From Climacium dendroides (Eukaryota; Streptophyta; Bryopsida; Hypnales; Climaciaceae), in assembly GCA_950106755.1 (NCBI GenBank), contig OX467092.1, positions 8,618,001 to 8,682,000 on the forward strand: a stretch of 64,000 bases of DNA, written 5' to 3'. The translations under genes and the position numbers were made by a program. Shown here one piece after another: positions 5,703 through 37,895 of this stretch (the stretch's first letter is position 1; each line of letters begins with the position of its first letter). A model generated the notes under the pieces. It did not search any database and was not told the DNA's origin. It was given only the letters and a program-made list of their open reading frames with translations.

Positions 5703-6415
5703 TTAGCATGACTGTAGATATGACTTGAACTCCTTCGCTATCCAATAACTCCTACTCCATCCACAAGGTTGACAATTCTAGATTGAATTTTATACTAAGA
5801 ATTAATGTAGATACCCATGCCACACTATCATCTGTACAAGATAATGAAATTGGAATGCTAAATCCATCACCGCGAACAAGTGCCATGTCCATACTTGCTT
5901 GTGCATACAATTTATAAACTCATGTTCAATGTCATTGCTTATGTGGGAGAATCCGAAAACTTCTTTATAATAGTAGGGAAATGACTATGAAGTAGCAGAT
6001 ATGGATTTCAATTGTTTCATATCTTGAGTTGTAGTGATTTGAAATTTGAATTGGAAAGCTTGCATTTAAGGATTTTATGCACGGCCTACAATTAAGTTAT
6101 TTTATTTCAGTTACTAGTAGACAATCCTTAGAATTATTAATAGTAGACAGCGCCGCATTGAGAGATGAAGGACTCTTTCAATATAAGGGTCATATCTTTA
6201 GATGTAAATAATTGTGAGGTAGTTGAGCGAAGAAGGGATGACCTAAATGACCGTTTATGCCTAGGTATGTAGATGTTGTTTTGTCTAGAGAAGGTCTAAT
6301 TAATTGGATGAGAATATGTGCATTAGGCTCTGAGAGTGCTATATATTGGAGAGAATGCAAAATTGGCTCTAAAAAAATAGAATTAGTTTTCTTGTAGTTT
6401 TCTTGGTTGGAGGGA

Positions 6416-9208
6416 TGTCAATGGGTTTTCAAAGAAAGAGACGTAAAGCAGGTCTTCTATTTTCTAGTAAGAAGCAGTTAGAGAAAGCGAAGATGGTTAG
6501 ACACTTGTAGAAAGCTAATGGTGCCGAGATTAGTAGCACTATTCAGACCTTATCCTATGAAGATAATGGAGCTAAAGTTGGGCATATTCTATATAGAGCT
6601 AGTTCAACACAAAATAGTGAAGGAACAGATATTACCAAGCTTGATAGTGTGGATGAAATTGGAGAGGACTTATGCCAATCAAGTCTAGTTGAGAATAACG
6701 TGGCACTAAAAAGTGTAGAGTTGGTAAGTTTATGTACTTATTGCTACAACTAGTCATTAGATAGTGAGGAGTTGAATTTACATTTACATATTTGTTAGAG
6801 GTGAATTTGACACCAAACCTCTTATCGTGTAATTTGAGAAGACGATTCCAACGGTATATAGCATGCAAAAAATAGAAAGTTTTTGAGTGTTTTATGGCCT
6901 AAAAAAAATTCAGCATATTCGAATCTTCTCTAAAATCTGGAGAATCGGAAGATTTTTTGGCCAAATCTTTCCCGCATATTTTCAGGGGACTTTAGCGATT
7001 TTTGTAAGAAAATTTGTGAGTCCAAAAAATCTGAAAAAAATTGAGGTGAGTAGTGAGGTTATAATCTATGCGTAAAAAAAATTTGGATCCCAAATCTTCA
7101 AAATCACAAAATCTATTGAAGATTCCTTTGTCTTATATCTACCAATCTCTTCCTTATTTTTATTTTTATTTTTTTTGACTAAGAACAACTTGATGGCTAG
7201 ACTAGGGTTTGCTTTCGGGTAGTTTTCTTTCTTTTGCATTGTTGTATTTTGGTTTAGGGTTGCATCTTGGTGCTTCTAGTACCATAAACTTACAGAGTGG
7301 CTTGTTGTGGAAGGATGGAGAGGTGTGCGGTGAAGGCGGAGAGGGTGTCCCCAAATGTATCGAAGGAGTCAACACTCTGAAAACTCAAGTTGCCAAATTC
7401 CTAAACAAGTTCTATTTTTGATCTTGTAGATTATTTTCTTAGATTGTAGAACATCGCCTTGTTAACGAGGTGACAATCTTAGGATGTTTTGTGTCTCATC
7501 AAAATGGTACGTAGTTCAAAGTGTAGGTTTAGAATTTTTTTTCCAACTACTCATTTGGGTTGTAGAAGATGGCTTCATTAACAAGGTCTTCATTTCTAGT
7601 TATTTCGTATTTCATCAGAATTGTATGTAGTTTACAGTGTAGGTTCCCAATTTTTTGTGGAATTGCTCATTTGAGCTGACCAAATATGGCCTCGTTATCA
7701 AAATCTTCATTTCTAGTTGTTTTGTGTCTCATCAGAATGGTACAAAGTTTAGAGTATACGTTCCCAATTTTTTTTTTGCATTTGCTCATTTGAGCTATCC
7801 AATATGGCCTCATTAACAAGGTCTCTATTTCTAGCAATTTTTTGTCTTACTCCAATGGTATATGCTTAGAGCATAGCTTTCCAAATTTTTTTCTAAATTG
7901 TTGGATTGGCCTTTAGAACATGACCTCGTTAACAAGGGCTCTACTTCTAGCAATTTTTTGTCTTACTCCAACAATACATACTTAGAGCATAGCTTTCCAA
8001 ATTTTTTTCTAGATTGTTGGATTGGCCTTTAGAACATGGCCTTGTTAATGAAGTCTCTATTTCTAGCAATTTTTTGTCTTACTCCAATAGTACATGCTTA
8101 GAACATAGCTTTCCAAATTTTTGTCCTAAATTGCTAGTTTGACCTTTAGAACATGGCCTCCTTAACAAGGTCTCATTTTTCTAACATTTTAGGCCTCATT
8201 TGCTTAGGGTGTAGGTTTTGAATTTTTATTCTAAATTGTTGGTTCAGCCTTCAGAACATAGCCTTGTTAATGAGGTCTCATTTTTCAAACATTTTAGATT
8301 TTTAGGTCTCACTCAAACAGTACGTACTTAGGGTGTAGCTTTCCAATTTCTTGTCAATTTCTTTTTATTACTCACTTGTATTTTAGAAACATCACCTCGT
8401 TGACGAGGTGTCAAATTCAAGGGTTCACATGATTCTTTTTGGAAAGGAGATGTAACTAATGTATATTTCCAATTTGGTCCAACAATTGTACAGAATGAGT
8501 ACCTATGGCAACTTGAAGTTGGAAGAGTTCAAGGGTCTTCTAAACAATGAAGATTACAAAAAATGCGAAAACGGAAAACTGCTAGGTGCTTGGTATCTAT
8601 TGACATCGAAAGTCTTTATACAATTCCTTCATCATGTGAGTGTTTTATGTTTATTAAAAAATTTCATTCATTTCTTGAAATTTGTAAAATTCATTTTATA
8701 TTAATTTCAAATTCTTATTTTTCATATGCAGTAAGAGATTGCTATTATTTCAAATGCGGCAATATGAAAATATTATAAGAAGACACAACCACAAGATCAT
8801 ACTCCAAAGGAAGTTCATGATGTTATAACCCAAGCTTCCATTGCAGCTATCAAGGGATTTCGAATAGAGTTTGATAAGCAATTTGCCATTGTACATTTGA
8901 AAAATGGCGTTGTATTTCTAGAAGAGGTATGTAATTTTGCTTTCTTTCTTACAAATGAATGATTTGTATGATGACATTGGTGTTGGTTTTAACTATAATT
9001 CTGTTCTTTGAAATTTCAGATTGACTTGTATTACAATGCTAACAAAAAGCCTAAGATGTCATTGGAGAAACTTCAAAGGATATCTACATGTGTGAGCCCC
9101 GGGATTGTCACCTATGTCTCAAACTGGAGGCGCCACCAAATTCCAACAGAATTTCAAAACATTCCGCGTGATTCCAAGCAAATCATGATCGTACAAAATC
9201 CAAATTAA
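6416..9208 (+). pseudogene. First half of decayed ParB-methyltransferase gene (copy B)
   Basis: Three exon-like blocks match consecutive exons of the gene at 18796-27288, with intron positions retained. Block 8459-8635 (LVQQLYRMSTYGNLKLEEF; donor GTGAGT) matches the exon at 22083. Block 8732-8926 (ITQASIAAIKGF ... FLEE; donor GTATGT) matches 22387. Block 9020 to about 9190 (KMSLEKLQRISTC) matches 22671. Upstream, 6416-6720 is a coding-like, basic then acidic stretch with one TAG that ends at a GTAAGT donor; it may match the exon at 20613, but similarity is weak. No ParB-like exon is recognisable between; the interval is filled by a 116-bp tandem array. The copy stops just before the exon with which the fragment at 37896 begins. 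Confidence 0.65.
7430..8430. repeat. Minisatellite, about 116-bp unit, nine copies
   Basis: A motif of the form CCTCGTTAACAAGGTCTC recurs with starts near 7459, 7574, 7691, 7809, 7925, 8041, 8158, 8273 and 8396. Spacing is 115-123 bp. Each unit also contains CAATTTTTTGTCTTACTCCAA or a variant and an A/T-rich stretch. The first and last units share a variant ending in GAGGTG. The array lies between the first block and the 8459 block of the decayed methyltransferase gene. Confidence 0.85.
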
Positions 9209-9853: not shown

Positions 9854-9863
9854 CCATTGGAGG

Positions 9864-10050
9864 CAACGATGCTAGCAGGCGAGCTTGGAGTGGGGAGCTT
9901 GCGAGCCGCGAGTGTGAAGTTTGTGAGCGGTGAGCACCAAAAGTATATTTTTGGAAATTTTTTTCATCCAATTTTTTTTCATCCAAAAACTTACTATTTA
10001 TAGTAAATTTTGTGACCTATGACCGTGGCTCCTATTACCGTGGTCTACAT
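9864..10050. repeat. Left terminal inverted repeat of copy A
   Basis: Starts CAACGATGCTAG directly after CCATTGGAGG. Contains GAGCTTG/GCGAGCC motifs and GTTTGTGAGCG, then GACCTATGACCGTGG at 10014. It matches the right end in reverse complement, with a roughly 50-bp A/T-rich length difference. Confidence 0.7.
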
Positions 10051-10714
10051 TTAATTTATAATTTCAGGCTTGGGTTTCTTATTTGCTGACTTCTCGGACT
10101 TGTAAAATTATGTATATATTTGAAACTCTTATTCATCCTACTACACAAAAGTAGGGGTATAACACTTTTTATAAAATAGACCATCATGAGTTTCGGAGAA
10201 TACTACAGTGTTGTTTGAAGGGGATAAATTGAGCACGGAGAACTAGGGCTTCTAATTATCCCATAATGATTGCTATTTCTAACAAGTGCTAGTATAAGAG
10301 GAATGGTATAGAAGAGTTAGCCAAGCTAAAGGTCAAGGTTTGTTGACTACTACAAACAAATGTGGTAGATTTCTAATTTTGACCGTAAAGTGATTTACTT
10401 CATGTATTTTAAATTTCTAATTTTTTGCCTTCCAATCTGACAGGAACTAAGATTGTAGGGAAGAGGTGGCAAAGCAAAAAATCTATATGAGTTTAGTCTT
10501 CGTATGTGTAGGGTAGCACGAGAGTATAGGATTAGGGTTCTAGCCATGCATTGGTATTTCATTTCACACAATTTAGTAATGACACTTCTGAAATATACTC
10601 CCACACTTTGCAAATGAAGGAACATTTTGATTGGTACATGCTTGAAATCATTTCTATTGCCAGATATACTAATGAATACAATATGCATGAATTTATCAAA
10701 AATTGCAATTGTGC

Positions 10715-11138
10715 CTACTCAGGGATAGTGATGAGTCCCGCTCGAAGTAGAAGTAGCTTCAACTCATTGAAGCTATAACTAGGTGCATGAATGAACTTGT
10801 CATCATGGATATCCATCTTGCAAAAATACCTATACAAATAATATAGATGTTTACAATTCACATACTACTGCCTTCCTCCAATTGCCGAGACGGCCATATT
10901 CACAAAATCCGGGCAAGTGCACGAGGGGAACATACCCACCGTAATTCGATATACGTTTTTGGTAGGGTTAGATCCCGTCTCCAATTCCACTATTGCGCCA
11001 AGGCCTGGAAAAGGGAGTAGGGTCACTCCTAGAATTTGTCCTTTAATGTTCCCAGCACTCTCCCACTTGTTCCGTTGTTTCGTACTTGGAGCATTTGCAA
11101 TTCTTCTGATGGTTCGGTTGTTCCTGATTGTTGGATAA
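10715..11138 (-). CDS. Transposase exon 2, SWIM zinc-finger tail
   Basis: Continues the frame exactly from the other side of the CACTA insertion (PTIRNNRTIRRIAN). Further on comes VYRITVGMFPSCTCPDFVNM, then CKHLYYLYRYFCK and a stop at 10715-10717. The CxC (tgc act tgc, near 10913-10921) and CxH (tgt aaa cat, 10847-10855) pairs define a SWIM finger, usual at the C-terminus of MULE transposases. A TAG at 10867-10865 falls between the two pairs and would remove the CxH half. Confidence 0.75.
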
Positions 11139-12319
11139 CACTAGAAGAAAAAGTAGGATTTTGCGACTGCGGTTTGCGACTGGTTTGTAGTCGTATCGGA
11201 CGTTTGCGACTTGGTGATATTCTGGAGTCTGCAGTCGTAGTGGACAAATCGCATGAGTTGCACTGCAGTCGCGAGGTTGTTTGTCATTCGATAGGCAATG
11301 GAGAACTTCGTCAATGAACTGCTATGACGTGGTTGCTGATGTGGAAGTTATTTCACTTATTTGTGTACAACTGGTTTGCGACTAATGTGCAACTGGTTTG
11401 CGATTGACATACAACTGGTGTGCAACTAGTTTGCGATTGATGTGCAACTCATTTGCGACTAGAGTGCAACTGGTTTGCGATTGACATACAATTGGTTTGC
11501 AATTGGTGTGCAACTAGTTTGCAATTAGTGTGCAACTAGTTTGCGATTGATGTGCAACTCGTTTGCGATTGACATACAATTGGTTTGCAACTAGTGTGCA
11601 ACTAGTTTGCGATTGATGTGCAACTCGTTTGCAATTAGTGTGCAACTGGTTTGCGATTGACATACAACTGGTTTGCAACTAGTTTGCGATTTGGTTATAA
11701 TTTATAGAGTTGTAGATTATAGAAATCTACAAATTGTAGAAATCTACAAAGTGTAAAAATCTATAAAATCTATAAATATTAGAATTTCACTATCAAAATT
11801 CATTACACAAGAATGCTATAACTTACCATTCTTATATGTTCAAGTTGATGGTATTCTTGAGAATCGATATGGGACAATTGAATCGATTTTCAGTCATGTT
11901 CTAGTTGCATTGCACTTGTTCTCTAGTTGCATTTGAATCGTTTTTTAGTTGCACTGTAGTCGGGCTCTAGTTGCATTATAGTTGATTCCTAGTTGCATTT
12001 GAGTCATTTCTAAGTTGCAATCTTCTAGTTTTTAGTTGCAGTCTGTAATCAGAGCGATTGCATTTTTCCACGGTGGACTCTACTTCGCGGATAGCTGTCC
12101 ACATGGACAACTGCGATGAATACTGGATGTAGAATACCTCATGTCAATTCTTCTGTTACAATATCGTAACCCTATTCTTCATTTTCTGACTACTTTGCGA
12201 CTACAACTACATACACGTGAAATTTGGTGCAAATACAGAGGGCTACAGTCGCATCTCAGTTGTATAGGACACATAGTCGCATCTCAGTGGGTTGCAACGG
12301 ATACGTTTTTCTTCTAGTG
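11139..12319. mobile_element. Non-autonomous CACTA element 1, inside the transposase exon
   Basis: Ends are CACTAGAAGAAAAA at 11139 and its inverse TTTTTCTTCTAGTG ending at 12319. Flanking 3-bp direct repeats TAA lie at 11136-11138 and 12320-12322. Inside the left end, 11370-11700 is packed with variants of TGCAACTGGTTTGCGATTG, the kind of subterminal repeats that CACTA transposase-associated proteins bind. No transposase ORF is present. The same terminal sequences occur in the element at 22951. Confidence 0.88.
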
Positions 12320-13287
12320 TAAGCATCCAGATTCTTGGGCGATGGTTGGTCATACAAAACACTTTCAAAAATCTTGGACATGGTGAACAATCGATGAGGC
12401 GACAGGGTGGGTCGTTCTTGGAGGTGGAAGCTCGCATGCTGTAGCAATAAAGTTTCGTCTCGATTGAGATTTGTCCCAATCAATACGGGCCAAACCTCCG
12501 GCACCTCAGGCCAATCAATGACCCATTTCCGCTTTGAGCCTTTCACGCACCTTTCAATGTCGTCCCAACAGAACCAGAAGTCTGAGACCACCTCGCGCCT
12601 ACTCCCATATTCTTCTTTCCTCCCACGATGAGTGGGAGTTGGGGTTCCCTTCCTCCCCTTCGCAATTTTTGCGTTACACTTGATGTTTGACGTCCGTTGT
12701 TGAGCTTGAGATCTGGCATTTGACTTGTGGCTAATCCTTGCAATGTGCCACTTCGATGTGTCACAGTCACTTTCAAATGCAACGGTCACATACTGCAAGG
12801 GGCGACCCTCAATTGTATTGCCCTTGCCATCCATCAATTCTTCTAAAGCCTTCGTTGACCTAGTCTGGACACGTGGTTGAGAGAAATTGATCTTATCTGG
12901 TCTATGGGAGTCTCCAGCATCACCAATAGGTACGTCCAACTTCCTCTTTGTGCTTCCAAATACTTCCTCTCCTTCCAAATGTGGTACACGACTTCCCACA
13001 CCATGTGCTTCAGGTAATGTGTTCAAGGCTTCGGCAATTTTCTTTGGGCAACCACTACGTCTTGCAACTCTCAGCTTCAGTTCCCCCTTAGATGGGCCGG
13101 ACCCACTTGCATGACCTCTGAGGTAGGCGCGATACTTTGTCATTTGCATCCAAGCACGAATACTGTCATCACAAGTGGCGTCAAATAAATTGTTCCCTCT
13201 ATTTCCGGACATTTGAAGCCACTTATTGTGCACTGTTTCAGACAAGTTATACGAAGGCAAGTCTGCCATCTCCTCCAAACTCAAGCC
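12320..13287 (-). CDS. Transposase exon 2, upstream part
   Basis: Starts GLSLEEMADLPSYNLSETVH after acceptor TTTGCAG at 13288-13294 and stays open to the CACTA insertion, ending in PSPKNLDAY. It carries a HNKWLQ segment shared with copy B at 3780-3600 and a basic linker. The final residues of the longer open frame (to 12256) are read from inside the inserted CACTA element and do not belong to the protein. Confidence 0.7.
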
Positions 13288-14145
13288 CTGCAAATGCACC
13301 CATTACAATACTTCAGTCTCCAATTATGGATTTGTACCTTTGACCAAAATTTACATATTCTCATGCAAGGTATCCAAAATAGTAGCATTTGAAGTAAGCA
13401 CTCCAACTTCCATCGGATCCGACGGATGTCCAAATGTTCTCTATTGGTACTCCCTTTTGTAGTCCCTGAACGTCACAGGGAAAAAAATGGAAGGATTACC
13501 TTCCACTAGTTCCAATGAATTTTGGAAATTGGAAATGAAAGATACATTCTGTGAGGTTAGTAGAGAGTTTCCTTGGAAGAAAGCACTTATATGAGAAGGG
13601 TAAAGAAATTGACTTCCAACAAAATATTAAATGGATTAAAAAAATGGAGTGTTTAGAAGACCAGTGAACTACCCAAGAAATACTCTGCTGAAAAAAGCTC
13701 TATATTCAAAAGAATATTACATTGACAAAAAATTAGGAGTGAACAAATTACTAGCACACTACCAAAAAATACTAGGCTAAGAACATTCGTCCAAAACAAA
13801 AAAACTAGACTACCAATAAAAGGAATAAAGGAAATCAAGCCAAAAAAAAACACTATCCTAAAAAGAAGTCTAGACTAACAAAATACTATTCAAATAAGAG
13901 AAAAAATAAAAAAAATCTAGGCTGGAACCAACAATTCACTACAAAAACAGTAGTGCACTAAAACAGAATTGTGCCCTAAGAATACGTGGATTTAAAAAAA
14001 CTACTTGAATAAAAAAAATTCTACACTACCAAAAACACCCATATACACGTATGTTCATATACATGTAGACGTTTAGGTGTTTGCATATGTGTATGTCATG
14101 AAGCCTCCCCATGCATATAGATAGAGAGATGACACGGTCACTTAC
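13288..14145 (-). other. Transposase intron
   Basis: 858-nt intron bounded by GTAAGT (donor, 14145) and TTTGCAG (acceptor, 13288) on the minus strand. It is A/T-rich with runs of A on the plus strand. Copy B has the same intron position but a shorter interval (about 3965-3780), so part of this intron may be a later insertion. Confidence 0.65.
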
Positions 14146-16305
14146 CATTGTCATGAAGCCTCCCCACTGCAGGTATCGAAAGTGCCAGAATGCAAGCCAA
14201 TGATCTAAATGATGAAGTGCTTCTTCATTCGCGGCTCCAGATGACAACCACCATGACCGGATTGCCAGGTATCGAAGCTCAGCTTCATCCATGGTCTTCG
14301 ATTCCTTGTATTGCTTGCATAGCGTAATATGTTGGTGCTGAAAGTTCTGTTTGATGTGTTTCTGTGTGTGCTTATGAAGGGAAGTGCTCCAATGTAGCAA
14401 ACACGTTCTCTTCCGGTTCTCCATGACCTCGTTCGCAGAACCACTCCCATATACTATACGGACCGCATTCCAATTAGCCATCGCACTATCTGCCATGAAT
14501 CCTTTGAAGTTTGGGTCAGGCACGCCATGTCGTGCCATAACAGCATTCAAACTCCTCCAAAATTGTACTTGGACCTGGGTATCTTCAAACTGCATATCGC
14601 ATACTGCGATGGTCATCACCTTCTTGTACTGAGAGTCGTACATGTGGCAGGCCATGGTGGTCCAATCTTTCACGCGCTTCACGTGGTCGAACATCATCCA
14701 CGCGTTTTCAAGGTCCTTTCCTGGTTGCATACGCTTCACCATATCCACTCCGCTTCATGGTCCTTCAGTTAGCATTTTAAAAATGTATACTTTCTCTTTG
14801 CCCTGTCCTGGGAAGACGCTATCGTGTATGAATTCGAACTTCGACTCTCTCTTCATAGTCATAATGTTGTCAATAATCCCTCCTCGGTTATTTGAGCGGA
14901 AGGAGGAAATTACGTTGCGTATACTAGGGCTACTTAGATATTGGAATCGATCCATCACCTCATCCACTTCCTCTCCCTTCAACATTCTCTTCTCTCCTTC
15001 TCCATGGTGAAATAAGTAGTTCGACAGGAAATCTTTGCTAACGGACAATGCTATAGCAGAGTTAGTGGCTGTCGGTGTTTTCGCAACCTGCTCCGCTAGG
15101 AGTTCACTAATTTCTTTTTTAGAATCTCTATACATGCCCTTTCCTACTAGATGAGTATGGGCTCCAAAGTGAATAGACACCCTTGTCATATTTGGATTGT
15201 CGCTATAACAATAGTAGATCCTAGCATCGCATGTGCTAGCGCATGTGTGAAGGCAAGTGGGTGTCACTTTGCAGACTTTACACACTAGGGTACAGTCTTT
15301 GGGTGGACCATCCCCTACTGCAAACGGGAAGACTGTGGATCCACTCCACTCTGTCTCATTCCTTTTTCCAGCCCTCTTCAAGTACTCGCACTCATGGTTC
15401 TTACAAGCAAGGTGACCGGCACAGAAAGACTTACGGAACTTTAGGTTGTCGACGTTGTAAATGTTTGTAGTTACGAGTTTGCACCATGTATGTCCATCAT
15501 AGCGCTTGTCCATTCCCTCCAAGTTCTTCGCTGCGGATGATGAAGAGGACGAGCGACACGGAGGTAACTCAAATAGCACATCTCCATTGTAGGAAGGGGG
15601 AAGGTACTGCACCTGATGGTGCTTTATAACATCAAAGTTTGTTGTGGACAATTCACTTCTAGAGCGACGAATACTGGACAATCTCTTCAAGCAATCCATA
15701 ATACTCACTTGGGTACCAAGATTTGCTGTCAGTGGAGGGCATGGAAATACAGGGGATTGTAAACTATTGGATGGGGTGGTTGATGTGACTTTTGTATCTG
15801 ACATACTGTGGACCGCAAACATGGCGTTTTGAAGTGCAACTTGCGGGGACTCTCCCTCAGATTCACTAGACAACTCTACAATGGTATTCATTTTCTCCCT
15901 CTTCACCTTCGTAAGAATCGTATTGTTCGGGAGTATAGGAAAGCAGTCACTTGGTAGACTAGCTGGAAGTCTTGGAGACATGTAAGGCATGTCCACTGTA
16001 GAATTGTCTGATTGCCGACTACCTAGCTCAGTGGCCGCCCCAAGAAGACTAAGAGGAAGCTCAAAAGCTCTATAGTTTCCTGCCCGCAGATACCAACAGT
16101 GGCCTTCTTCTTCTACACTCTTTTCCACTGGAATGGAATGCTCTAATTTCCCTAATTCTGACTTTCTCTCTTCTTCAACATAGATTGAAGACTCTAGGAA
16201 CTTGAATCTGACATGCAAAAGGTGATTGAGTACTCTAGCATGTCCTTCGTGATTCACTGGAAACACCAAAGGTATTTCATGACCATCTACTCTAATACAA
16301 GCCAT
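14146..16305 (-). CDS. Transposase exon 1 (zinc finger and catalytic core)
   Basis: 720 codons from ATG at 16305 to the GTAAGT donor at 14145, read as one frame through a single TGA at 14757-14755. The 516-residue piece before the TGA begins MACIRVDGHEIPLVFPVNHE, has a Ser-rich linker near residue 250 and then the finger. The piece after it (VDMVKRMQPGKDLE) continues without an indel, so the TGA is a point mutation or sequencing error. Coding-sequence base composition is richer in G and C than the AT-rich flanks. Confidence 0.7.
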
Positions 16306-18311
16306 AGTGTAAGTAGGATGACTGTAGGAATTTGAAATGAGAGAATTGGCTTTTAAGAAGGGTGTTGAGGATTTTATACTTTGTTGAGGAGTTCCTTACA
16401 ATCATTGTGATCATCACTTTTCACACAGATAGCGAGGTCCAGGTTAGTACAAATTTCTATTGCCACTCAATTAAGTTACTTTCCGTATTGCCGCCAGTAA
16501 AGGTTAGAATTTTGAAATTAAGAGCAGTTTAATAACCTTAGCCATCAAGCAATGATACCAAATTTTTGCAATGATGTATTAGGTATCCAAACTCATTGCC
16601 AATACATGCACGCCTTGCAGGAGCTCTGTCATTGTTAGGAGTGCCCAACTTCGCTGTCATTTTCAAAAATTAATTGCTGGAGGCGAAGGAAATATTGTGC
16701 CGACATTGGAGGATTTGGAGTGTGGCAAACTCAACTGATAGCATGACAGTTTTGTCAAAATGAGACGGACTTCAAAGTCATTAGGGCTGCCAGTACTTCA
16801 AGAGCTTAGTATGCCGATTTCAAAGCAAAATAAATGCATGGCGCTTTCATGGAGCCGCCAATACTCACGTGTCAGTTGATCTTAGGAGATTAATTACAGC
16901 TTGGCCAGTTAGGAGAATGCAGTAATTTCGAGCATGCGAACCTCGTTCAAGAGCAACTATAAGCTATACCTTGGACCTGCTCAAAGCCTTTTCATTTTGC
17001 AACTCCAATTGTGGTAGTAGCGTTGCATCTTAGTAATCACGTAGTTTTTGCTGTCTCATGCTTGTAGGCAATCCAAACTCTGCCATCTTAGCTCCGTCAC
17101 ATCGTACAAAAAGGAAGAGACGTAGAGCTTTCTTCTTTTCGACAGCAAAGGCTTTGAGGGTATCCAGGATGACGAGAGCGAAGAAAACAGTTTCAACGAC
17201 GAGGTAGGGTGTAGAGAGAGAGGTACCAAGAGCCATCCAGTTCCAAGAGGGTGATGCGCCTCCAGTAGATGAAGTGGGTCTACTGTTGCACACTGTGCAT
17301 GACAGGATCAAAGAGAGTGCAGGACTTAGCAAATTTGGAGGAGACGACACGGTGAATGTGAGTTTAGATTTGAACTCCTCTCATTTATTGCAGTCATGGC
17401 GTCAACCTAGATTATAGTGACAGAGGACCTTAGCTTGGTTATGATACCTAATTGTAGTGGATTGTGCACTACATTGCTTAGAGACTGACCATTATCATAC
17501 CGGAGACTTACCCTGAATGCACACCTCTGCACGGCATAGACGTGCTTTCAGTAGGCCATTTTAAGACTATGTGAAAGTGGAGCTGTACACTTTGAGTTCC
17601 AGACATTGAGTTGTAGACCTTCAGTTTTAGACTTTTAGTGAGTCATGGACAAGCATTGAGAGAACTTGCGTTTAGTTGCATTTCTGAACACGCAAAGTTT
17701 GCATTCCTGTTGTTGTTGTACAATTTTTAGTACTGACAAATAAGATCAATTGAGAGTGATAAGTACTCTCATATGGATTGAAGGCCTTGAAGGCTCTGGT
17801 GCTGCTCCAAAGAGACAAGTAGAACATCCCTTATTTTAGAAGTACTTTTCTGTAATTTGGAAAGGGTGTTTAAGGTCAAGGCCAGACATTTGTATTAACA
17901 AGAATAATTTGTCTGCGGTGTTCACATGAAGCTTGCAAACATTCATAGGCCTTGAAGGCTTGTAGACATTCTAATGTCACTAAGAAACAAAATGAATTTT
18001 TTTTAAAGTTCTATAATGCCAAAGCAATTTAATCACCAGCAGGGGTGCTTTGGAGTTTTCAAAATGAAAGAGTGCTCAGAAGTTAGTCGTCCTCTGAACT
18101 AGCAATCCAGAAGCCAGTCTTGGGAGTCCTCAGTCTCCAATTGTGAGTCTGAAACTGGAAATCAAGGAAGATGAATAAGAGCTTCGAATCGGTCGAACGC
18201 CCTGAGCCACAATTCGGTGTCTCCCGCACCGCTCGCTCCAGGAAGTTGGTTCCTGATTTCCAAGCGTCCAAAATGCCTCCGAAAAGGTACTTCTGTTCCA
18301 AGTTCACGGAG
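16306..18311. other. Divergent intergenic region between the two element genes
   Basis: Two kilobases between the transposase start (minus) and the 18-bp array upstream of the methyltransferase gene. It presumably holds both promoters, but no convincing TATA pair could be fixed. A minus-strand open stretch at 17350-17030 (hydrophobic segment VVETVFFALVILDTL) lacks an ATG at its head and is not recognisable. GC content is higher than in the outer flanks. Confidence 0.4.
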
Positions 18312-18483
18312 GTTCACGGATCCGACGGTATTCATGAATCCGACGGTGTTCACGGATCCGACGGTGTTCATGAATCCGACGGTGTTCACGGATCCGACGG
18401 TGTTCACGGATCCGACGGTGTTCATGAATCCGACGGTGTTCACGGATCCGACAGTGTTCACGGATCCGACGGTGTTCACGGAT
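18312..18483. repeat. 18-bp tandem array with GGATCC core, nine full units plus a partial
   Basis: Unit A is GTTCACGGATCCGACGGT; unit B differs as GTTCATGAATCCGACGGT. Starts are every 18 bp from 18312. Order is A B A B A A B A(variant) A, then a partial unit. Because 18 is a multiple of three, several frames stay open and give artefactual six-residue repeats. The array lies about 310 bp upstream of the methyltransferase start codon. The GGATCCGACGGTGTTC part is also the centre of the three palindromes in intron 1. Confidence 0.93.
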
Positions 18484-19100
18484 GCTGCCCAGGTGAGTCC
18501 TGAATGCCGCGCAAGTGAGTCGATTTCGAGATAGACTCGCGGATATCTCTCTGCGCCGTCCAACGAATGAGCTTCCAAGGATTCCTCCTGTGGACGTAGG
18601 TGGGAAACATTCAAACTCTCTCATCGCTCACGATACGTGCTGGACGGTGGAGGACCTTGCATTGAGAAGCTGGTGCTCGACGATATCACATGCCACAAAC
18701 GGTCGCGTGTGCTGGAATGAGAACTTGTGGGATTTTCATTTTGTGAATTGATTATCAACAGCTTGGCACTCCTTCATCTGCAGGACAAAGCTGCAATGGC
18801 CCGTAGTACTCGCAGTCGTTCCAGGATGGCAGATGCCGAGCCGGACCCAGCACTTCAGGTCAGTGTCTAGATTTTGGTCGATCGTGTGAGTCCTATGTGC
18901 ACAGGAGTCCAAGCTTCAGCAGCGCCACGCGCGGCGCGCGATAGTCGCGTCACGCGGGTGATGCTTGTTTTCTTGAGTGCCCGATTCAGTTAGAACATGT
19001 ATTGCTCGATCGATTGCTCTGGCTTCCATTGCTGAGTTTCCAATCTGGACTTCAGAAAGGGGCGGCAACATCAGAAGTGTCAGAAGGGAGGTGTCACGTT

Positions 19101-19202
19101 GGCCTGAAGAAAACATGATCAGCCCGGGGGTGCTGCTTGAACACCGTCGGATCCGACGGTATTCAAGCAGCACCCTCGGGCTGATTATGTTTTCTTCAGG
19201 CC
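19101..19202. repeat. Palindrome P1, 102 bp, no loop
   Basis: Left arm starts GGCCTGAAGAAAACATG, right arm ends CATGTTTTCTTCAGGCC-like. Symmetry centre lies between 19151 and 19152 in GGATCC. Three mismatches in 51 pairs. The central core (CCGTCGGATCCGACGG) equals that of P2 and matches the 18-bp array unit. Confidence 0.93.
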
Positions 19203-19439
19203 GACGACTCCAACGACCACCCTGACCCAGTACTGAGCAGAAGTCTTATCTTCCTTGAGCTCCGCACTGGGGGAGATGCGATAATCCGAGATGAAGCTGA
19301 TAGTGAGAAAGGCTGGCTCGATTTAGCTTCCGAATTATGTTTTGCTACTGAAATTTGTCACCGTAGCACGTAGTATCCTCAGTCCCAGTAAGGCGTTCCA
19401 GATTCAGTATAAACACAAGAATGAGAAATGTTGAATCTG

Positions 19440-19530
19440 GCTCGTGCACTTGCCTTGATCGAATAACCTTCACTCGTGCACTTGCCTTGATTGAATAACC
19501 TGCAAGATCACTTGCTTTGATTGAATAACC
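19440..19530. repeat. 33-bp tandem repeat, three copies
   Basis: CACTTGCCTTGATTGAATAACC or close variants occur near 19446, 19479 and 19508. They lie between palindromes P1 and P2 in the same intron. Confidence 0.75.
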
Positions 19531-19584
19531 CGCGTGGACTGGCCTAGATCTCATTTTGAGAGAAATCTGATTTTGAGAGAGAAC

Positions 19585-19692
19585 TTGGGCACGTGAAAAA
19601 TGCCATCAGGCTGGGGTGTCACCATGAACACCGTCGGATCCGACGGTGTTCACGGTGACACCCCAGCCTGATGGCATTTTTCACATGCCCAA
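19585..19692. repeat. Palindrome P2, 108 bp, no loop
   Basis: Left arm starts TTGGGCACGTGAAAAATGCC; right arm ends in GGCATTTTTCACATGCCCAA. Centre lies between 19638 and 19639. Two mismatches in 54 pairs. Core as in P1. Confidence 0.93.
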
Positions 19693-19819
19693 ATCTCCCG
19701 CGTGGACTAGCGTAGATCTAATTGGAATGTGGATGTGGGCTGGCCTTTATCTCGTAGGAATTTAATGTCGCCTTGGACAGCTCATATCTCATTAGAATGA
19801 GGCTGCAAGAATTAGAGAT

Positions 19820-19927
19820 TTGGGAATGTGAATAATTCCATCAAGCTGGGATGTCACCGTGAACACCGTCAGATCCGACGGTGTTCACGGTGACACCCCA
19901 GCTTGATGGAATTATTCACATGCCCAA
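19820..19927. repeat. Palindrome P3, 108 bp, no loop
   Basis: Left arm starts TTGGGAATGTGAATAATTCC; right arm ends in GGAATTATTCACATGCCCAA. Centre lies between 19873 and 19874. Three mismatches in 54 pairs. Homologous along its length to P2, with most differences between P2 and P3 mirrored in both arms. Confidence 0.93.
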
Positions 19928-20612
19928 GTTGTTTTTACTCAATTTGTGCTCCAAAACTGCTGTATGGGTCCATCTTCAATCCTAACGTGTGCATTTGCTT
20001 TCTTCAGACATGTGATCGTCATGGGGAGTTGTTCGATGGCACACAATCAATCTCTGATGAGGTATTAGTATCTGTCTTTTTTTGTTTATATTTAAGTAAT
20101 GAAATAGAGGGAATTCGGATTTGGGATTTAGGCTTAGTGCTCTCAATGTCGTTAGGAACTCGTCCCCAAGCTCTGATTGTCTTAGGGAACTCGTTCTCAA
20201 GTTCCCAATTTTTTTTGCTTACATTATTCGTTAGGACTCATCCTTCAGTTCTCTATGTCTTAGGAAAATCTTACTAATGTACTCATAGCCTTTGGCTTGG
20301 ATTTTGAATTGCTATTGCACTATGTTCTTTGCAAATGCATGTTTTGTTGTTCTAAAAGAGTTATAACATATTGTTAGAGAGAATTACCTTGCCAAGACAT
20401 ATGCGTCTTGATTTTACACTTCAATGTAGGTATAGAACTCATGTAGGGGAATGAATCCTACATGTACAGGAAGTTCAGTTACGGAGACCTTTGGTATTTA
20501 TAGTACATGTTGAGATTTGTAAATTGAAGTTTCCTTGCTTACAGTTGCATTCAATGTCTCTTAGACATTGTCTTCAACCTCAACTCTAATTTCATTGTAT
20601 TCATTCCTCCAG

Positions 20613-21053
20613 GTTGGCCAACGCAAAGGCAAGTGCCCAAGGGTGACATCTAAAGAGAAACAGGCCCCAATTGACCAGACCTTGACGTCGTTGCAGATAG
20701 GAGGGCCTTCTCAACCACAAAAGGGGCCTCAAGCACGCCAAGTGCTTTCAAGTGACTCTAGTGATGATGAAGAGAACTTGGTGAGTTTTGCAGACATCAT
20801 GGACGCTGCAAAGCGTGCTGTAAATGACTTCGAGGGAGATAGGCTTACTTGGAACCAAGGGCCTGGGCCATGGTTCTCACCTGAGAGCTCAGAGATGGAG
20901 TATTCCTCCACCATTGAGCTCTCAAATGCTAGCTCTAGCCCCTCGTTTGAGGAAGTGAGTGAGAGTATTGGGATTGGTAGAGTTTACACATATGAAGTCA
21001 TCATCCTTAGCTCAGATGAGGATGAGGATGATGACGTGGACATCATCCAATAG
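20613..21053 (+). CDS. Exon 3 with read-through form (short acidic isoform)
   Basis: If the strong donor GTGAGT at 20955 is not used, the frame continues to TAG at 21051-21053. It then ends in a very acidic tail (SSDEDEDDDVDIIQ), giving a 185-residue protein with exons 1 and 2. If the donor is used, the frame joins ATGGATGTTTCACCC at 21277 in phase 0. The 322-nt intron has a CTGAC branch-like site before TACATGCAG. Both products are plausible; the spliced form yields the fusion protein. Confidence 0.5.
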   Translation, partial: VGQRKGKCPRVTSKEKQAPIDQTLTSLQIGGPSQPQKGPQARQVLSSDSSDDEENLVSFADIMDAAKRAVNDFEGDRLTWNQGPGPWFSPESSEMEYSSTIELSNASSSPSFEEVSESIGIGRVYTYEVIILSSDEDEDDDVDIIQ

Positions 21054-21276
21054 GGTTTCATGACCCCAATTACATACCTTCTGCGGTTTTAGACATGCAA
21101 GCCATGTGCAGGCTATTTTTCTTTCATATATTTACCACTCTTCCATTTTATAAGTGTAATTTTTTTTATTGAAGTAAAGAATTTTCAACTGCGTCTCAAT
21201 ATAAATTCTTCGCACGGACTTGGCCTCTTTTTTAATTTGCGAGTGCAATCTTCTCTGACTAGAATTGTACATGCAG

Positions 21277-21974
21277 ATGGATGTTTCACCCACTGGAGTA
21301 ACTCAAGAAGAGACCATCTTGGAGACTCCGGGAACAGATGAAACGACACAGCCGCATATTGAGGACGAAGAAGAAGAGGATGAAGAAGAGGACGAAGAAG
21401 GAGGAGGACAAGATCCCATGCAAATAGATGACCTAGAAGACAAAGATCAAGGACTCATGGAGGATGAATTGCGGCGCATACAAAAAGGCGACTCAGTAGA
21501 TATCCTCTCCACTCTGCGAATGAAGCCTGAAGAACTCTTCCGGCTACACATCCCGCTTTGCAGACTTGTCGTTATGCCCATGGTGAGGCCCACACTCGCT
21601 TGTGACATTACGAAGTTGGAGCAAGAATTCGCAGGTGGATACCGTGATGGAGCGGCAGTGTTCTATATCTCTACCACTAATGAGGAAGGAGAAAGCCAAG
21701 AGTTCGCAGAGGACGAGATGAACAAGTGGGATCCAATCTGGAGAGAGAAAAATGAAGTGTTCACACGCTACCTCGACTCCAGACCTGAACTTCAGTTCCT
21801 CAAGAACTTGAAGTTCTTCATTTGCGACGACAACCATCGCCGCATTGCATGGATGAACCTCATTGACAGGTGCTACACATTGCTCCCAAAATGGCACTGT
21901 GTCGTAGACTGCATTGTACTGGAAACCAAAGGGAAGACTTAGCTTGTCATGCAAGTGATGCATGACATCAACAA
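21277..21974 (+). CDS. Exon 4: acidic segment and ParB-like domain
   Basis: Encodes an acidic stretch (EDEEEEDEEEDEEGGG), then LHIPLCRLVVMP.VRP and KFFICDDNHRRIAWMNLI. The latter resembles the conserved DGNHR-type motif of ParB/sulfiredoxin-fold domains, in which the N-H-R residues line the active or nucleotide site. TAG at 21940-21942 interrupts the frame 11 codons before the donor; the following codons (LVMQVMHDIN) read on naturally, so it looks like a recent point change. Confidence 0.65.
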
Positions 21975-22950
21975 GTGAGTTCTTCCTTCTTGAGCTGCTT
22001 TTCCGGTCTTTGGTTTTTATGTGACCTAGTTGTAAAATCATGGTGGCTTATTGGATTTCCTAAAATAGTCATCTACTTCCAGGTCAGTGGAAGATTCACA
22101 CGTGAAGACAAACTTGGTACACACTTTGTACCAGGTGCAGAAGTATGGTCTTCTCCCAATCAACCGATTTGCTGATCTCCTCAAGCCCGGGGAGAAGAAA
22201 AGGTGTTTGCAATTCAAGGTTTCAAGGAAATGGTATAGCATACCTGTGGAGGTCTTCACATCGTTCATTTTCAGGGTAAGACACTATGTGTTATCCAAAT
22301 TTGGAATCCTTCAGTTTGTTGCAGTCTGCTCCCAAAACTCTTCACATGCCTAACTTCTAATTCAATGTTATCGTTTGAATGTGCAGCAAGAGATTTCCCA
22401 AGCTGCGGATGCTGCAGTGAGAAAGTATACCGATGTTACACCAGAAGAGGAGAGGACCCCTGAAGAAGTCACTTTTGCCATAAGGGCGGGAGCAAAGGAG
22501 AAAACCAAAACTCTGATGGTGAAAATGGGGAAGTTGTTGGCAGTGGCTCAACCATCTAACGGGCCAGGCTTCTTACAGGAGGTCAGTCTAATTCTGAAAC
22601 CTTGCACAACTACAAATTTACTTCTTCTGTTTTCAAACGCCAAGAGTTATTGAATGTGTTGCTGTCATAGGTAGAGAGGCACTGGAGCACTAATGAAGTG
22701 CCTGAAATGACATTGGAGAAGTTGCAAATGGTGGCCACGTGCAACATGGCGCCTGCACACAAGATCAAGATCTTGAAGTGGTGGAACTCCTCCGCGCCAT
22801 TTCGCGAAGCAAGGAAGTTCCCACCAAAGCCCGTCTCTGAAAATCTCTTACCCCATTTCCTTGCCAAATGCGTCTGGTATGCTGGGGTAAGGGAATTGAT
22901 TCCTGTAGTCAAGTAACTATACTAAGCGATACTTGGTTTTCAAATTGTAA

Positions 22951-24485
22951 CACTAGAAGAAAAAAGGGGGTTTTGCGACTACGCTACACAACTGGTTTTT
23001 CAGTTGCATCGGACATTTGCGACTGGATTGCAACTAGTGATAATTTGGAATTTTGTAGTTGCAGTGGACACTCTAGAATCTAGGAAACGTTTGTAGCAAT
23101 ACACCTTGTCTGTGACTCATTTGCAACTTGTTTGCAACTTGTAAATTTGTAGATTATTAAAACATTAGTCTTAATGATTTATAGATTTCAAAATTTCAAA
23201 TCTACCTTTCTCTAGATTTTAGGTTTCAAATCCACCTTTTTGTAGATTTTAGGATTTTAAATCTACTTTTTTTCTAGATTTCTAAATTTCAGATCTACTT
23301 TTTTCAAGATTTTAGAATTTCAAATCTACCTTTTTCTAGATTTCAGAACTTTTGAACTACCTTCTTCCTAGATTTCAAAAATTCAAAAATTGGTATTTAA
23401 TAGATTTCATTAGTTTAGGAAACTTTACAATTTTATAGATTTTAAAGTTTCTTAATTTTCAATTTTCTTAAAATTTCTATTGGTTGTAGAATTTTGTATT
23501 CTATAGAATTCTAAATATTATAGAAATCTACAAACTGTAGAAATCTAAGAATTCTACCAACACAATTCATTGCATAAGACAACAATAGCTTACAAGTCTT
23601 ATATGTCCAACTTTAAGGTACTCTTGACAATAGATATGGGACAACTGAGATACTAAAAAATGATTAAGAAGCAACTAAGATATTGAAAAACAACTAATAA
23701 ACAACTAATGTATGACTTAACAATGACTAGGAAACAACTAAGACAACTAATGCATGACTTAAAAGTGACTAGGAAACAACTAGTTTTACTACTACAAAAC
23801 TCAATTTTTGATTGATTTCAGTAGATAAGTGAAACAAATCTATACAATCAAATCAACAAAATAGCTAAATTTTCTAAGAGTGTAAAATGACTAAAAACCA
23901 AATGGCCAATTTCATTAAAATGGAGACATTCCATTATTTGGCACTTTTAACAGTTTAGATTGTGCAATCTGAAATCTATATCCATCCTAGATTTCTAAAA
24001 TCTATAAAAGTCCTAGATATCTAAAATCTAGATTTTTACTAATTTTTTAAAATCCCACAATCTAAAATCTATATCAGTCCTAGATTTTTGAAATCTATAA
24101 ATGTTCTAGATGTACATAATCTATATTAGTCTTAGATGTCATTTTGCAATTGAAAACCCACAGTTTGAAAAATTGCACAGAGAAATATAGAATGCTACCA
24201 TTTTAATGAAATTTGCCATACAACTAAAGTACAACTAGAAAGCAACTAGGAAATGACTAGAAAATGACTAAGAAATAACTTTGGTCATTTTATAGTTGCA
24301 ATTTTTCTCTAGTTGTTTCCTAGTCATTTTTACAACTATAGATTGACTGCTTTGCGACAAAAACAATAATATAAAACAATTAAATTAAATTTGGTGCAAA
24401 TAGAGAGGATTTCAGTCGCAGGATAGTTGTATAGGACACTAGTCGCAGAACGGCCGGTTGTGGCAGACACGTTTTTCTTCTAGTG
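22951..24485. mobile_element. Non-autonomous CACTA element 2, in an intron of the methyltransferase gene
   Basis: Ends CACTAGAAGAAAAAA at 22951 and TTTTTCTTCTAGTG ending at 24485, with TAA direct repeats at 22948-22950 and 24486-24488. It shares subterminal sequence with element 1 (TTTTGCGACT near the left end; GTTGTATAGGACAC near the right). The interior is A/T-rich without coding sequence. It sits in the 22887-24557 intron and leaves both splice sites intact. Confidence 0.88.
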
Positions 24486-25930
24486 TAACTCACAAGTTCA
24501 GAATGGGACCATGAACGTCTTCAATTGTACATTTTTAGCATGCATTGTACTCTGCAGATCGAAGATGCAGCAGTGGAGTACTTCGACTCGGTGGTGAAGC
24601 AGGACAACATCACTGTGAACTACAGCATTCCAATGCAACCACAGTACTTGGTAGAGTACATAGAAGGGTGGAGGCGCACAATTTGGGAGCACGGGTTTCA
24701 GACATATTTCAAAGGGCACAATTACTTCAAAAAGGGGGACTCATTCATGGCTCACGAAGCGTCAGCCGCTGTTGTGCGCAGAGTTTTGTACCGGTGAGTT
24801 CCACTATCTGAATACTGGAATATGTCTAATAACTTGGTGGACAGCAAGTTATTGTAAAAATCACTATACTATTTGAAGTCCATTATAATGAGGTTTCAAA
24901 TGTTCACTTCAACTCTAACTCCTTATTTTAGAACCTTTCGGTATACAATTGTATGATAATTCTCTTCTGCAACGTCTCCATTAGGCCCTTATACTGGAAA
25001 TGCATTCATTTTTCACAAGTTCGTTGGTCTTACCATCCAGATTTGCTCACAGATGTATGTTGTAGAGATTCCATGATCATCATTTACATTCTCCTAAATG
25101 CAAAATCATACTTGTACTGTAGATATTTCAAATTTGAGCTCGAAGGAAAAGGAGCCATCGATCGCTCAGACCTTCCCCCCTTCCTATCATCATATCTGGA
25201 TCGCACATCCAATTCTTGTATGTTCACCGCACACCAGCTCCGCACCTACACCACAGCTCATCTCAGCGGTGGAGGATGGTACTTGGATTGTCTCCTCGAG
25301 TTCACTCCTCCTTCCGAGGTTGAATTCAGGAGATCTTTGGACGGGAAAGGGGTCCTGGACTTAGAGATCAATGAGTTTACAGGCCTGGATGACAAAGCGA
25401 GAAAGAAGGCCATTGCAAGGAGGGATTTTCTGGACCGGAAGAAAGAGGCGCGGGTCCAAGTCCACCTTGAAGCGAAGGAGATGAAGGCATCCGAGCTTGT
25501 TGACAAAAAGGTGGCAAAAGAAAAGGAAGAGAAGGGTAAAGGCAAGGGAAAGGGAAAGAAGAAGGAGGAAGCGGGAGGCGAGGTGGTACCATCTTCCACC
25601 GCAAATGAAGATTCACAGGCGCAAAGTGAAGTACAGAAGAAGGCTACTCTCCTACAGCTCACCGAGGAAGTTATCACTCGTATGACACAAGCCATGGTCA
25701 TTACAGAAGGTGATGTTTCTAAGACGGAGGATTTGATCCTCAACATCTCCATCGAAGTCTTGGCAAAAGACATGGTCGAGGAGAAGCCCACGTGGTACAA
25801 CGAGGTGCTGCATTTCTTGAAAAAGGTATGCATATGCATCTTTGTACTCAAAAGCGCATTTTATGCTTTCATGTCTCATGAATGTTTTCTGTGCTTATTT
25901 TTAACTTCACCATATTCTACATATTTGCAG

Positions 25931-26951
25931 ATGTCGGCCGGAAAGACTCGCATGTTCGAGGGAGTGCCAAATGCTCGACCGGGGGTGGATGTCATATTCA
26001 TTGACTGTCCGGAGAACTTATCCGTGCCTGGGCTCTCTACACCGGCCCATGAGGTGCCAATGTGGAATGCAGATGCTGATGATGAGGCTCTCCAGTTGGC
26101 ATGTAGCTTTGCCGCAGAGCATCTACAAGATGATGGGTGCATCATTCTATTTCACTCCTACAACATCAAATCCAAAGAGAACATTGCTGGGGTATGTGAG
26201 GCGTATGACTTGTTGATGAAGAAGGACTGGATGGGGATGAACCACATGCACATCACCTCGGCTATAGACAACACAAAGATGGTAATTTTCATAGAATTTT
26301 GTCTCCTTTTATGAACAAGTTGCAATGCACTCCATTCAATGCATTCTTACGTACATTTGCTATGGACGTTGCAGACACAGAAGTTTGGAATCACCCTCCT
26401 CGTGAAGGACCTCGACTCCAAAGGAAAATCCAAATTTTCCTTCAAAAAGACTAACACCACAATGAAGGCTGGTGTGGACTTGGCTATCGATGACATGTTG
26501 ATCAATTACACCCATGCAGATGACGTGGCTATGAATGGAAACAAACCTTGGCGAGGCTCATGCAAAAAAGATCCAAGGTTCTTCACTATCCTCTTGGAGG
26601 CAACAAGCGTTCCAGGAGACTTGATTCTGGATTGTACCGCATCTACAGGTAATGATTCCATTCAGAAGTTTACTCCTCCAAATGTGTTCTTCCAATTCTT
26701 TCATGGAACTAAGTCATTTTGATTTCACTGCCTCCAAGTGCATGTATTACGGCTTGCCGTGGCATCGGCCACCACATTGTGGCTTTGGAAGGGAATAAAG
26801 ACATTTATGATGCCATTCTGAAACCCATGAGGAAGTCACCAACACCCGTAGTGGTGACACCAACTGTGCCACCAATAGTTCACCTTTCACAAGATCCGGA
26901 GGATATGCCAGTGGTGCCTTGCAAATTCATTCGCAAGGGAAAATCTAGTAA
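25931..26951 (+). CDS. Methyltransferase-domain exons 10 to 12
   Basis: Exon 10 holds VDVIFIDCPENLSV (motif IV position) and CIILFHSYNIKSKENIAG. Exon 11 (26375-26648) holds GITLLVKD and ends LILDCTAST. Exon 12 holds ACRGIGHHIVALEGNKDIYDAIL, the usual strand-helix following motif I. The order matches the N6_N4_Mtase family. In that family motif IV is normally D/S/N-P-P-Y/F; here it is DCPE, so catalysis may be lost or altered. The exon 11-12 join is uncertain: the acceptor CTAAG at 26709-26713 keeps the frame, but a more natural start would be near 26738, one base out of phase. Confidence 0.65.
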
Positions 26952-27524
26952 GTAAGTTGGCATTTTCTTTCATCTTTGCTTGGATGAAGACTTTCATGTT
27001 CTACAATATTGACAACATGTCTTTTTCCATTGCAGAGATGGGAGATTGATGGCAAGGAATGACACCCTACCCCAACTAAGTCTTCTCATCAGTCCGGAAA
27101 AGTCTTTTGAGCTCCCAATCTATGCCGAGCAAATGGCAAGTGCCTTCGCGGAGTTTGGTTGTTCCAAACCCAAACGCCTTAAAGACACTTATGCTCTAAA
27201 TGTCTTACAGTATATAGATGTTTCAGCATCCGAAGGTAGAGAGTCCTCGGAGTCATCTCCGAGTTCTGATTCTTTGATAGAATTCTAAACAACTTAGATT
27301 CATGAGATTGACAAATCTCTTTAATGGGTCAAACTATTATGTGTTGATTTTCATTGTAGTTGGATTTGTGTGTTTATGGATACTTCTTCCATGTGTTCAA
27401 TTTTCTTGCATGTTTTCTACTTGCTTCATTTTCTTCAATTGATAGTATTTTGTCTTTGCCTATAAGAAAGATTGAAAAATAAAAACAGGACACTAAACCG
27501 ACTTTCAAAAATAGATCTCACATT

Positions 27525-27665
27525 AACCACTCTGTACACGGCACAATACCCACGGTCATAGGTCAACTCTACAAGATTCTAAATTTTTTCAATTCATTTT
27601 TTTCACGCTCACAAGTTCGCAGGCTCATAGGCTCAAGCTCATAGGCTTGCCAAATAGCAACCCTG
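27525..27665. repeat. Right terminal inverted repeat of copy A
   Basis: Ends at 27665 next to CCATTGGAGG. Read on the minus strand it begins CAGGGTTGCTATTTGGCAAGC and later contains GAACTTGTGAGCGTG and GACCTATGACCGTGG, matching the left arm. Confidence 0.7.
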
Positions 27666-27675
27666 CCATTGGAGG

Positions 27676-28209: not shown

Positions 28210-28560
28210 TACGTGGAATATGACTATGGTCAGTCATATTTTTGGATGACGTGGAATATGACTGCGGTCAGTCATATTTTTGGATGACGTGGAATATGAC
28301 TGCGGTTAGTCATATTTTTTAATGACATGGAATATGACTACAGTGAATCATATTTTTTGATGACATGGAATATGACTGCAGTCAGTCATATTTTTGAATG
28401 ACATGGAATATGACTGCAGTGAGTCATATTTTTGGATGACGTGGAATATGACTACAGTCAGTCATATTTTTTGATGACATGGAATATGACTGCAGTCAGT
28501 CATATTTTTTGATGGCATGGAATATGACTGAGGTGAGTCATATTTTGCAGTAATGTAGAA
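28210..28560. repeat. 38-bp palindrome-containing tandem units in CACTA element 3
   Basis: Units of GACGTGGAA followed by the near-palindrome TATGACTGCAGTCAGTCATA and a T run repeat about nine times. Variants replace CAGTC by CGGTC or CAGTG. Such inverted-repeat-rich subterminal arrays are typical of CACTA elements. Confidence 0.85.
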
Positions 28561-28849
28561 TACGACTCTCGTTAGTCATATTTTATGGAATATGACTTCT
28601 GTAAGTCATATTTTTGGCTTCATGAAGTTGCAAGTAGCTTCCAATGTCTTTGTTTCAACTTTTGATGCCTGCATATACAATCAAAGAAATGAGAGGTTAG
28701 TTTTTAGTGATTGAACAACAAAGCCTAACCTTCAAAGATTTACAATCAATACAAAATATGTAGCTCAAGTTTAGGATAGGAAGAATAAGATTGATGATGG
28801 AGGAAACAAGAAAAAAAATATAAGTACTAAGAGATAACAAGAATCAAAA

Positions 28850-37830: not shown

Positions 37831-37895
37831 TTTGATTCTTATCCTATTGTTGTACCATGATACACTTTGTTGTAACAATGTCTTCATACTTATAG

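Follow-up and report, generated by a model that had tools for sequence, protein, structure and literature searches.

A two-gene, Mutator-like DNA transposon family in the moss Climacium dendroides with a putative ParB- and methylase-like partner gene

The stretch of the Climacium dendroides genome analysed here, called the window, is composed of 64,000 bp (assembly GCA_950106755.1, contig OX467092.1, positions 8,618,001 to 8,682,000 of the forward strand) and contains a 17.8-kb transposable element. As the first-pass annotation of this DNA had described, the element carries two divergent genes, a Mutator-like element (MULE)-like transposase on the minus strand and a second, multi-exon gene (gene 2) on the plus strand, and it is bracketed by an exact 10-bp direct repeat, CCATTGGAGG. 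By exact string search this repeat occurs only twice in the window, as the left (9854-9863) and right (27666-27675) target-site duplications (TSDs), and never on the opposite strand. Just inside them, comparison of the ends identified an imperfect 21-bp terminal inverted repeat (TIR) at 9864-9884 (5' end, plus) with its counterpart at 27645-27665 (3' end, minus); the element starts with CAACGATGCTAGC and its 3' terminus reads CAGGGTTGCTATT in reverse complement. Fourteen of the 21 terminal positions are identical in the window copy and 14 to 15 in eight other copies (P of at least 14 is 7e-5 at a fixed register). The inverted-repeat ends proposed earlier stand in these terminal 21 bp; the inner 16-bp inverted match TGACCTATGACCGTGG barely exceeds chance, with a local score of 32 against 30 for the best of 200 shuffles, and was rejected as proof of TIRs.

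The ends were searched in the whole genome (412.6 Mb, 123 contigs). The 201-bp 5' end returned 231 candidates and the 3' end 144; all 40 scored places matched for each, the 5' end with 95-100 percent across the whole query. Recurrence of the paired ends had been set in advance as a check on the element, and for 25 of the 40 5' ends that were scored, a scored 3' end lies in the correct orientation at most 40 kb away, against a chance expectation of 0.093 pairs. Twenty of these 25 pairs span 14,693-15,234 bp, the rest being 16.5, 17.8 (the window), 22.4, 23.2 and 31.9 kb, and an extra pair of 15,348 bp was found by reading copy C34_34699. Ten other copies were fetched as two 10-kb tiles each, and eight of them show both ends. 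In these eight and in the window (9/9) the TSDs are exact, 10 bp long and at nine different targets. Both genes are present in nine of the ten fetched copies, in one case with gene 2 incomplete within the fetched DNA; in the tenth, C37_2590, homology ends at 16885 within 20 kb, and the 3' end lies 31.9 kb from the 5' end. A chance block flanked by unrelated repeats is ruled out, because the ends recur, pair up and carry TSDs. The element, its copies and the pairing of its two genes are thus directly observed, and the family is high-copy and fairly young, with a median pairwise divergence of about 2.5 percent across the transposase end (ten copies and the window). About 300 bp past the 3' end of C34_34699 there is also a transposase fragment from a sister family with about 81 percent DNA identity (L016:5745-7913; C34_34699 15745-17913).

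The transposase has a first long exon at 14146-16305 (minus), defined by open frames and 139 homologs, and a last exon at 12323-13287 (minus), defined by open frames and comparison with an open copy. A middle exon near 13465-13340 was rejected, having no consistent frame here and likewise none in the open copy, and direct splicing of the first to the last exon preserves the frame. The window transposase is broken by one in-frame stop in the first exon and by a nested CACTA-like element, up to which the last exon runs and which removes the C-terminus with its SWIM-type motif. Both long stop-to-stop frames are open in three of the ten other copies (786-787 and 466-467 codons); in one of these, C40_25629, a SWIM-type CxCx19CxH (CTC, 19 residues, CKH) was read by eye at the C-terminus. 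Among 120 listed of the 139 homologs in the protein collection, identity does not exceed 81 percent and none has a Pfam domain. A Pfam scan of the open-exon model at E<=10 gave no match, scans of 52 homologs gave single weak matches to unrelated families and no MULE model, and no rival transposase superfamily stood out in these scans; a PDB sequence profile search returned one weak unrelated row. Across the 52 homologs D570, D606, C635 and H638 are invariant, and the last acidic residue (E) was not placed. MULE DDE transposases have a C(2)H between the second D and the E, and the invariant residues are consistent with a DDE enzyme of this type. Mosses have SWIM transposases of this type. We use the label MULE-like because of the TSD length, the SWIM motif and the layout, and on this anatomy the family almost certainly consists of MULE-like, cut-and-paste DNA transposons with two genes. 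A survey of eukaryotic MULEs describes TSDs of 8-11 bp and a SWIM finger (PMC6446971). In MULEs generally, TIRs vary in length and may be absent, and the SWIM finger (CxCxnCxH) is common, not universal.

Gene 2 was modelled with 10 exons across 21271-27288 (plus): exon 1 at 21271-21974, with an uncertain start and, in the window copy, one in-frame stop; exons 2-4 at 22083-22275, 22387-22581 and 22671-22886; exons 5-6 at 24558-24793 and 25123-25825; exons 7-9, containing the putative DNA-methylase-like domain according to motif reading, at 25931-26281, 26375-26648 and 26739-26951; and exon 10 at 27036-27288. The first-pass annotation had counted 13 exons. Splice sites are GT/AG in the nine copies examined, bar one acceptor and one donor, and the exon 9 acceptor is shifted by one base from the initial model in all eight copies reaching exon 9. 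Besides its in-frame stop, gene 2 of the window has one frame slip. None of the eight complete copies has gene 2 open throughout (one has a single stop, one a frameshift), and the stops mostly fall at different codons between copies. A protein search with the complete spliced gene 2 returned nothing, most likely because predictions of exon size are removed by its length filter; an exon-sized query gave 144 gene 2 homologs, of which 120 were listed.

The N-terminal domain, modelled from 21457-21939, is predicted to have a ParB/sulfiredoxin fold, and this structural assignment is supported by an arginine of the P-motif, within CDGNHRRxAW, in 65 of 69 sequences; the role of this residue in ParB proteins has been described (PMC12704722). 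Among sequence profiles, Pfam ParBc (PF02195) matched none of the 69 gene 2 sequences, 12 of the 69 had a weak match to a PHROGs 'ParB-like partition protein' (best E 0.039), and a PDB sequence profile of the exon gave weak unrelated rows only, the best being KMP-11 (E 0.028). A single-sequence structure prediction with a predicted local distance difference test (pLDDT) score of 44.9 was not used. The ParB-like part of the original gene description therefore holds as a fold and not as a Pfam domain, and none of the MULE, SWIM, ParBc and N6_N4_Mtase models proposed as a test matched any model scanned.

The C-terminal domain is probably related to beta-class N4/N6 DNA methyltransferases at the level of the fold, according to matches that are individually weak but agreeing, most of which rest on one motif X/I stretch. 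All six families returned by PHROGs are methyltransferases (best E 0.0019), NCBIfam returned CcrM (E 0.067), and the PDB search listed DpnA (0.37) and MboIIA (1.7) alongside unrelated rows. A tblastn search of phages gave 84 records at E<=10, none spanning more than 80 percent of the query; the 15 listed include YhdJ (3e-3) and a DNA methylase (5e-3). Viral contigs searched with either alignment yielded no relatives, and Pfam N6_N4_Mtase matched no gene 2 model scanned. In these enzymes motif I is usually DPFxGSG and motif IV usually DPPY. The window has LDCTASTG at the motif I position, as do most copies, and DCPEN at motif IV. Across 14 distinct copies (eight fetched copies, the window and L032-L036; L029 and L030 duplicate the window and C40_28564), the motif IV position reads DCPEN, DIPEN or one of the variants DCLEN and DCPKN; the catalytic (D/N/S)PP(Y/F/W) occurs in none of the 14 and DPPY is never present. 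This position was unreadable in C3_14278, in its 3' end L031 and in C37_2590. The methyltransferase assignment made earlier thus survives as similarity around motifs X and I, without the catalytic motif.

In order to compare selection on the two genes, changes were counted as nonsynonymous to synonymous (N:S), taking the majority codon as ancestor with a transition weight of 5, which gives a neutral ratio of 2.4 (2.3-2.9 for weights between 8 and 2). A codon was skipped if it had no majority codon, more than one changed base, or an excess of gaps or N. Ten copies and the window were used for the transposase, and eight copies and the window for gene 2, including the frameshifted C34_34699; gene 2 is missing from the 20 kb fetched for C37_2590, and C3_14278 has no exons 8-10. 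Among changes shared by at least two copies, gene 2 has 21:34, which is 0.25 of neutral (P 6e-7), and the transposase has 33:52, or 0.26 (P 1e-9); the P values, here and below, are guides only because related copies are not independent. Private changes are 119:89 in gene 2 (0.55 of neutral, P 3e-5) and 156:76 in the transposase (0.85, P 0.25). A noncoding control in frame 0 has 20:3 private and 8:2 shared changes, differing from gene 2 with P 0.006 and 0.019 (Fisher's test); frames 1 and 2 rest on the same changes. Gene 2 has 15 stop changes, shared and private together, 11 of which arise as CAG>TAG or TGG>TAG; exons 1, 6, 7 and 8 show nine private and one shared. The transposase has 12 private and five shared stops. 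The prevalence of CAG>TAG and TGG>TAG among the gene 2 stops, the intron-rich genes and the CACTA-like elements give the sequence a plant-like character. In the alignment of the ParB exon, 13 of 14 gaps are multiples of three. These codon patterns indicate past purifying selection on gene 2, and the shared changes fit a family whose elements could multiply only with both genes in working order. After that, the transposase appears to decay freely within each copy, while the private changes in gene 2 still look partly constrained. We consider it very likely that gene 2 was selected for the life cycle of the element itself.

Two other open frames were counted in the same way. The region 20613-21050 (plus), upstream of gene 2, is open and coding-like, with one single-base gap, private changes of 15:9 with three stops and shared changes of 4:5; it may be a further gene 2 exon or a small open reading frame (ORF), and may account for part of the difference between 10 and 13 exons. 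A 116-codon minus-strand frame at 17030-17380, upstream of the transposase start, is open in seven of the ten other copies too, and has shared changes of 6:8 and private changes of 16:7 with two stops. It is possibly a 5' exon.

The pairing of the two genes is also found in an older, diverged relative of the element within the window. A decayed transposase lies at 3603-5919 (minus; tblastn matches from 3705 or 3977 to 5543, outer bounds by eye), and its longest piece matches at 51 percent (E 2e-128). Decayed exons 2-4 of its second gene lie at 8456-9205 (plus; tblastn 8471-9127, E 8e-8, outer bounds by eye), and later exons, including the methylase-like part, were found by tblastn at 37643-39956 (plus; 39 percent over 98 residues, E 9e-12). 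The divergent gene order is the same, the motif IV position reads DISDG, and a ParB exon was not found in the window by tblastn. The most straightforward interpretation is that the present element, along with other insertions, landed inside the second gene of the older relative. In the public homolog lists, six contig sizes above 10 kb are identical between the transposase and gene 2 (61 and 67 distinct sizes) against 0.016 expected; as this is far above expectation, these contigs very probably carry both genes.

The window copy owes its extra length to two CACTA-like elements nested inside it. The first (11139-12319), with TIR CACTAGAAGAAAAA and flanking TAA, breaks the last transposase exon and is not found there in any of the ten other copies; the second (22951-24485) lies in gene 2 intron 4 and is not present in the nine other copies covering the site. 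They have identical 14-bp TIRs, TAA flanks and internal tandem repeats, and C3_14278 has a related insertion at a different place. Between the divergent genes, the tandem-repeat finder, run on the window copy only, identified an 18-bp array of about 9.6 units of GTTCACGGATCCGACGGT at 18312-18483. It was rejected as a family-wide binding array: the window copy has 13 TCCGACGGT sites, each of eight other copies has 3 to 7 when both strands are counted, and the fetched DNA of C37_2590 has none (C40_25629 was left out of the count). Better conserved are three near-perfect palindromes of about 108 bp, at 19097-19206, 19585-19692 and 19820-19927, also between the two genes, which align in all nine copies covering the region; the exact 18-bp core is missing in one of eight copies. 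These palindromes could be binding sites, or could extrude as hairpins. Elsewhere in the window, a 38-bp tandem array lies immediately right of the element (28211-28584), and a partly low-complexity 425-codon plus-strand frame is open at 59207-60481.

Overall, the explanation we favour, with moderate confidence, is a two-gene MULE-like family in which gene 1 is a transposase with a C-terminal SWIM-type zinc motif and gene 2 would be a self-specific helper. The gene 2 product would be long, with a ParB/sulfiredoxin-fold domain at its N-terminus and, at its C-terminus, a domain related to beta-class methyltransferases. The former would act as a nucleotide-binding, DNA-loading module recognising the noncoding DNA of the element, perhaps the intergenic palindromes, and the latter would supply DNA or S-adenosylmethionine (SAM) binding and not standard base methylation. 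Such a protein could keep the element expressed or control transposition, as the VANC proteins do for the VANDAL MULEs of Arabidopsis (PMC10398659, PMC5735166), in which a MULE likewise has a second protein; VANC proteins bind noncoding DNA of the family they belong to and cause silent marks to be lost (PMC10398659). The abstract of that paper does not describe VANC as ParB- or methylase-like, and DNA binding, like nucleotide use and an effect on silencing, is something we infer for gene 2. An anti-silencing or regulatory role, drawn by analogy with VANC, is a tentative proposal. More speculative still, and rather unlikely, is that a phage-style protein with ParB and methylase domains was taken up by a eukaryotic DNA transposon and is now a nucleotide-switched clamp that spreads along the DNA of the element itself and protects it against host silencing, with the methylase domain as a non-catalytic DNA or SAM sensor.

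Alternatively, gene 2 could be a structural partner of transposition, involved for instance in end-pairing or target choice, and not an epigenetic regulator. It is co-conserved with the transposase, and ParB proteins form clamps that load onto DNA (PMC12704722), but a single ORF is given for many MULEs (PMC6446971, Table 1); we regard this as possible and somewhat unlikely. The first-pass annotation had suggested a methylase that could mark or protect the element's DNA or modulate transposase binding. On this view gene 2 would be an active N4-cytosine or N6-adenine enzyme, steered by the ParB-like domain, that marks the DNA of its own element. Similarity around motifs X and I points that way, as do phage ParB folds, often fused to predicted N6N4-methyltransferases (PMC12704722). 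However, since the catalytic motif is missing, self-methylation is disfavoured: D[CI]PEN, DCLEN or DCPKN replaces DPPY in every distinct copy with a readable motif, DISDG does so in the older relative, and motif I departs from the usual form in most copies. A working methylase is therefore doubtful, and we consider it improbable. Least probable is that gene 2 was captured from a host gene as a fragment and travels as a passenger, in the manner of Pack-MULEs. MULEs tend to pick up such fragments (PMC6446971), and every complete copy read is broken, but the purifying selection on shared changes, similar to that on the transposase, the predominance of in-frame gaps in the ParB exon, the retained introns and the repetition of the gene pairing in a distant relative all argue against it.

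Several known systems resemble parts of this element. The MULE survey describes TSDs of a length that fits this element, the SWIM finger, and additional ORFs or motifs, among them SET, ovarian tumour gene, FAR1 and RING; in contrast, its main text does not contain the terms methyl, ParB, moss or Physcomitrella, and the rows of its Table 1 that were examined show no ParB-methylase ORF (PMC6446971). The pairing of ParB and methylase domains is best known from bacterial viruses. Phages and prophages have both domain types in one mobile-element protein, perhaps for anti-defence, but these fusions are prokaryotic and recognised by Pfam, and the main text of that work has no mention of plant or transpos (PMC12704722). 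Mariner elements of algal viruses carry a transposase and a methyltransferase, although they belong to another superfamily, with a separate endonuclease and enzymes of the C5 or Methyltransf_26 class (PMC3627910). DNMT-bearing and Dam-bearing retrotransposons also encode a DNA methylase, but they are retrotransposons with C5 or Dam-like enzymes, and ParB is absent from the main text of the report (PMC5890265). TET/JBP genes show that a DNA-modification gene can be repeatedly carried by DNA transposons, in that case a dioxygenase and in fungi (PMC12730594). In open-access text we found no ParB-methylase in a MULE or other eukaryotic transposon, which does not establish its absence in print, nor did a ParB-like system by which a eukaryotic transposon recognises itself turn up there.

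Because the family is abundant and fairly young, a helper role could be tested by expression, methylation profiling and excision assays. Few systems show as clearly how mobile DNA comes into conflict with silencing as transposons with epigenetic tools of their own, such as VANC, TET/JBP and DNMT. If our reading is true, a ParB-methylase-like partner under selection in a MULE of plant type would be a new class of such tools, and would connect eukaryotic transposons with a counter-defence architecture of phages.

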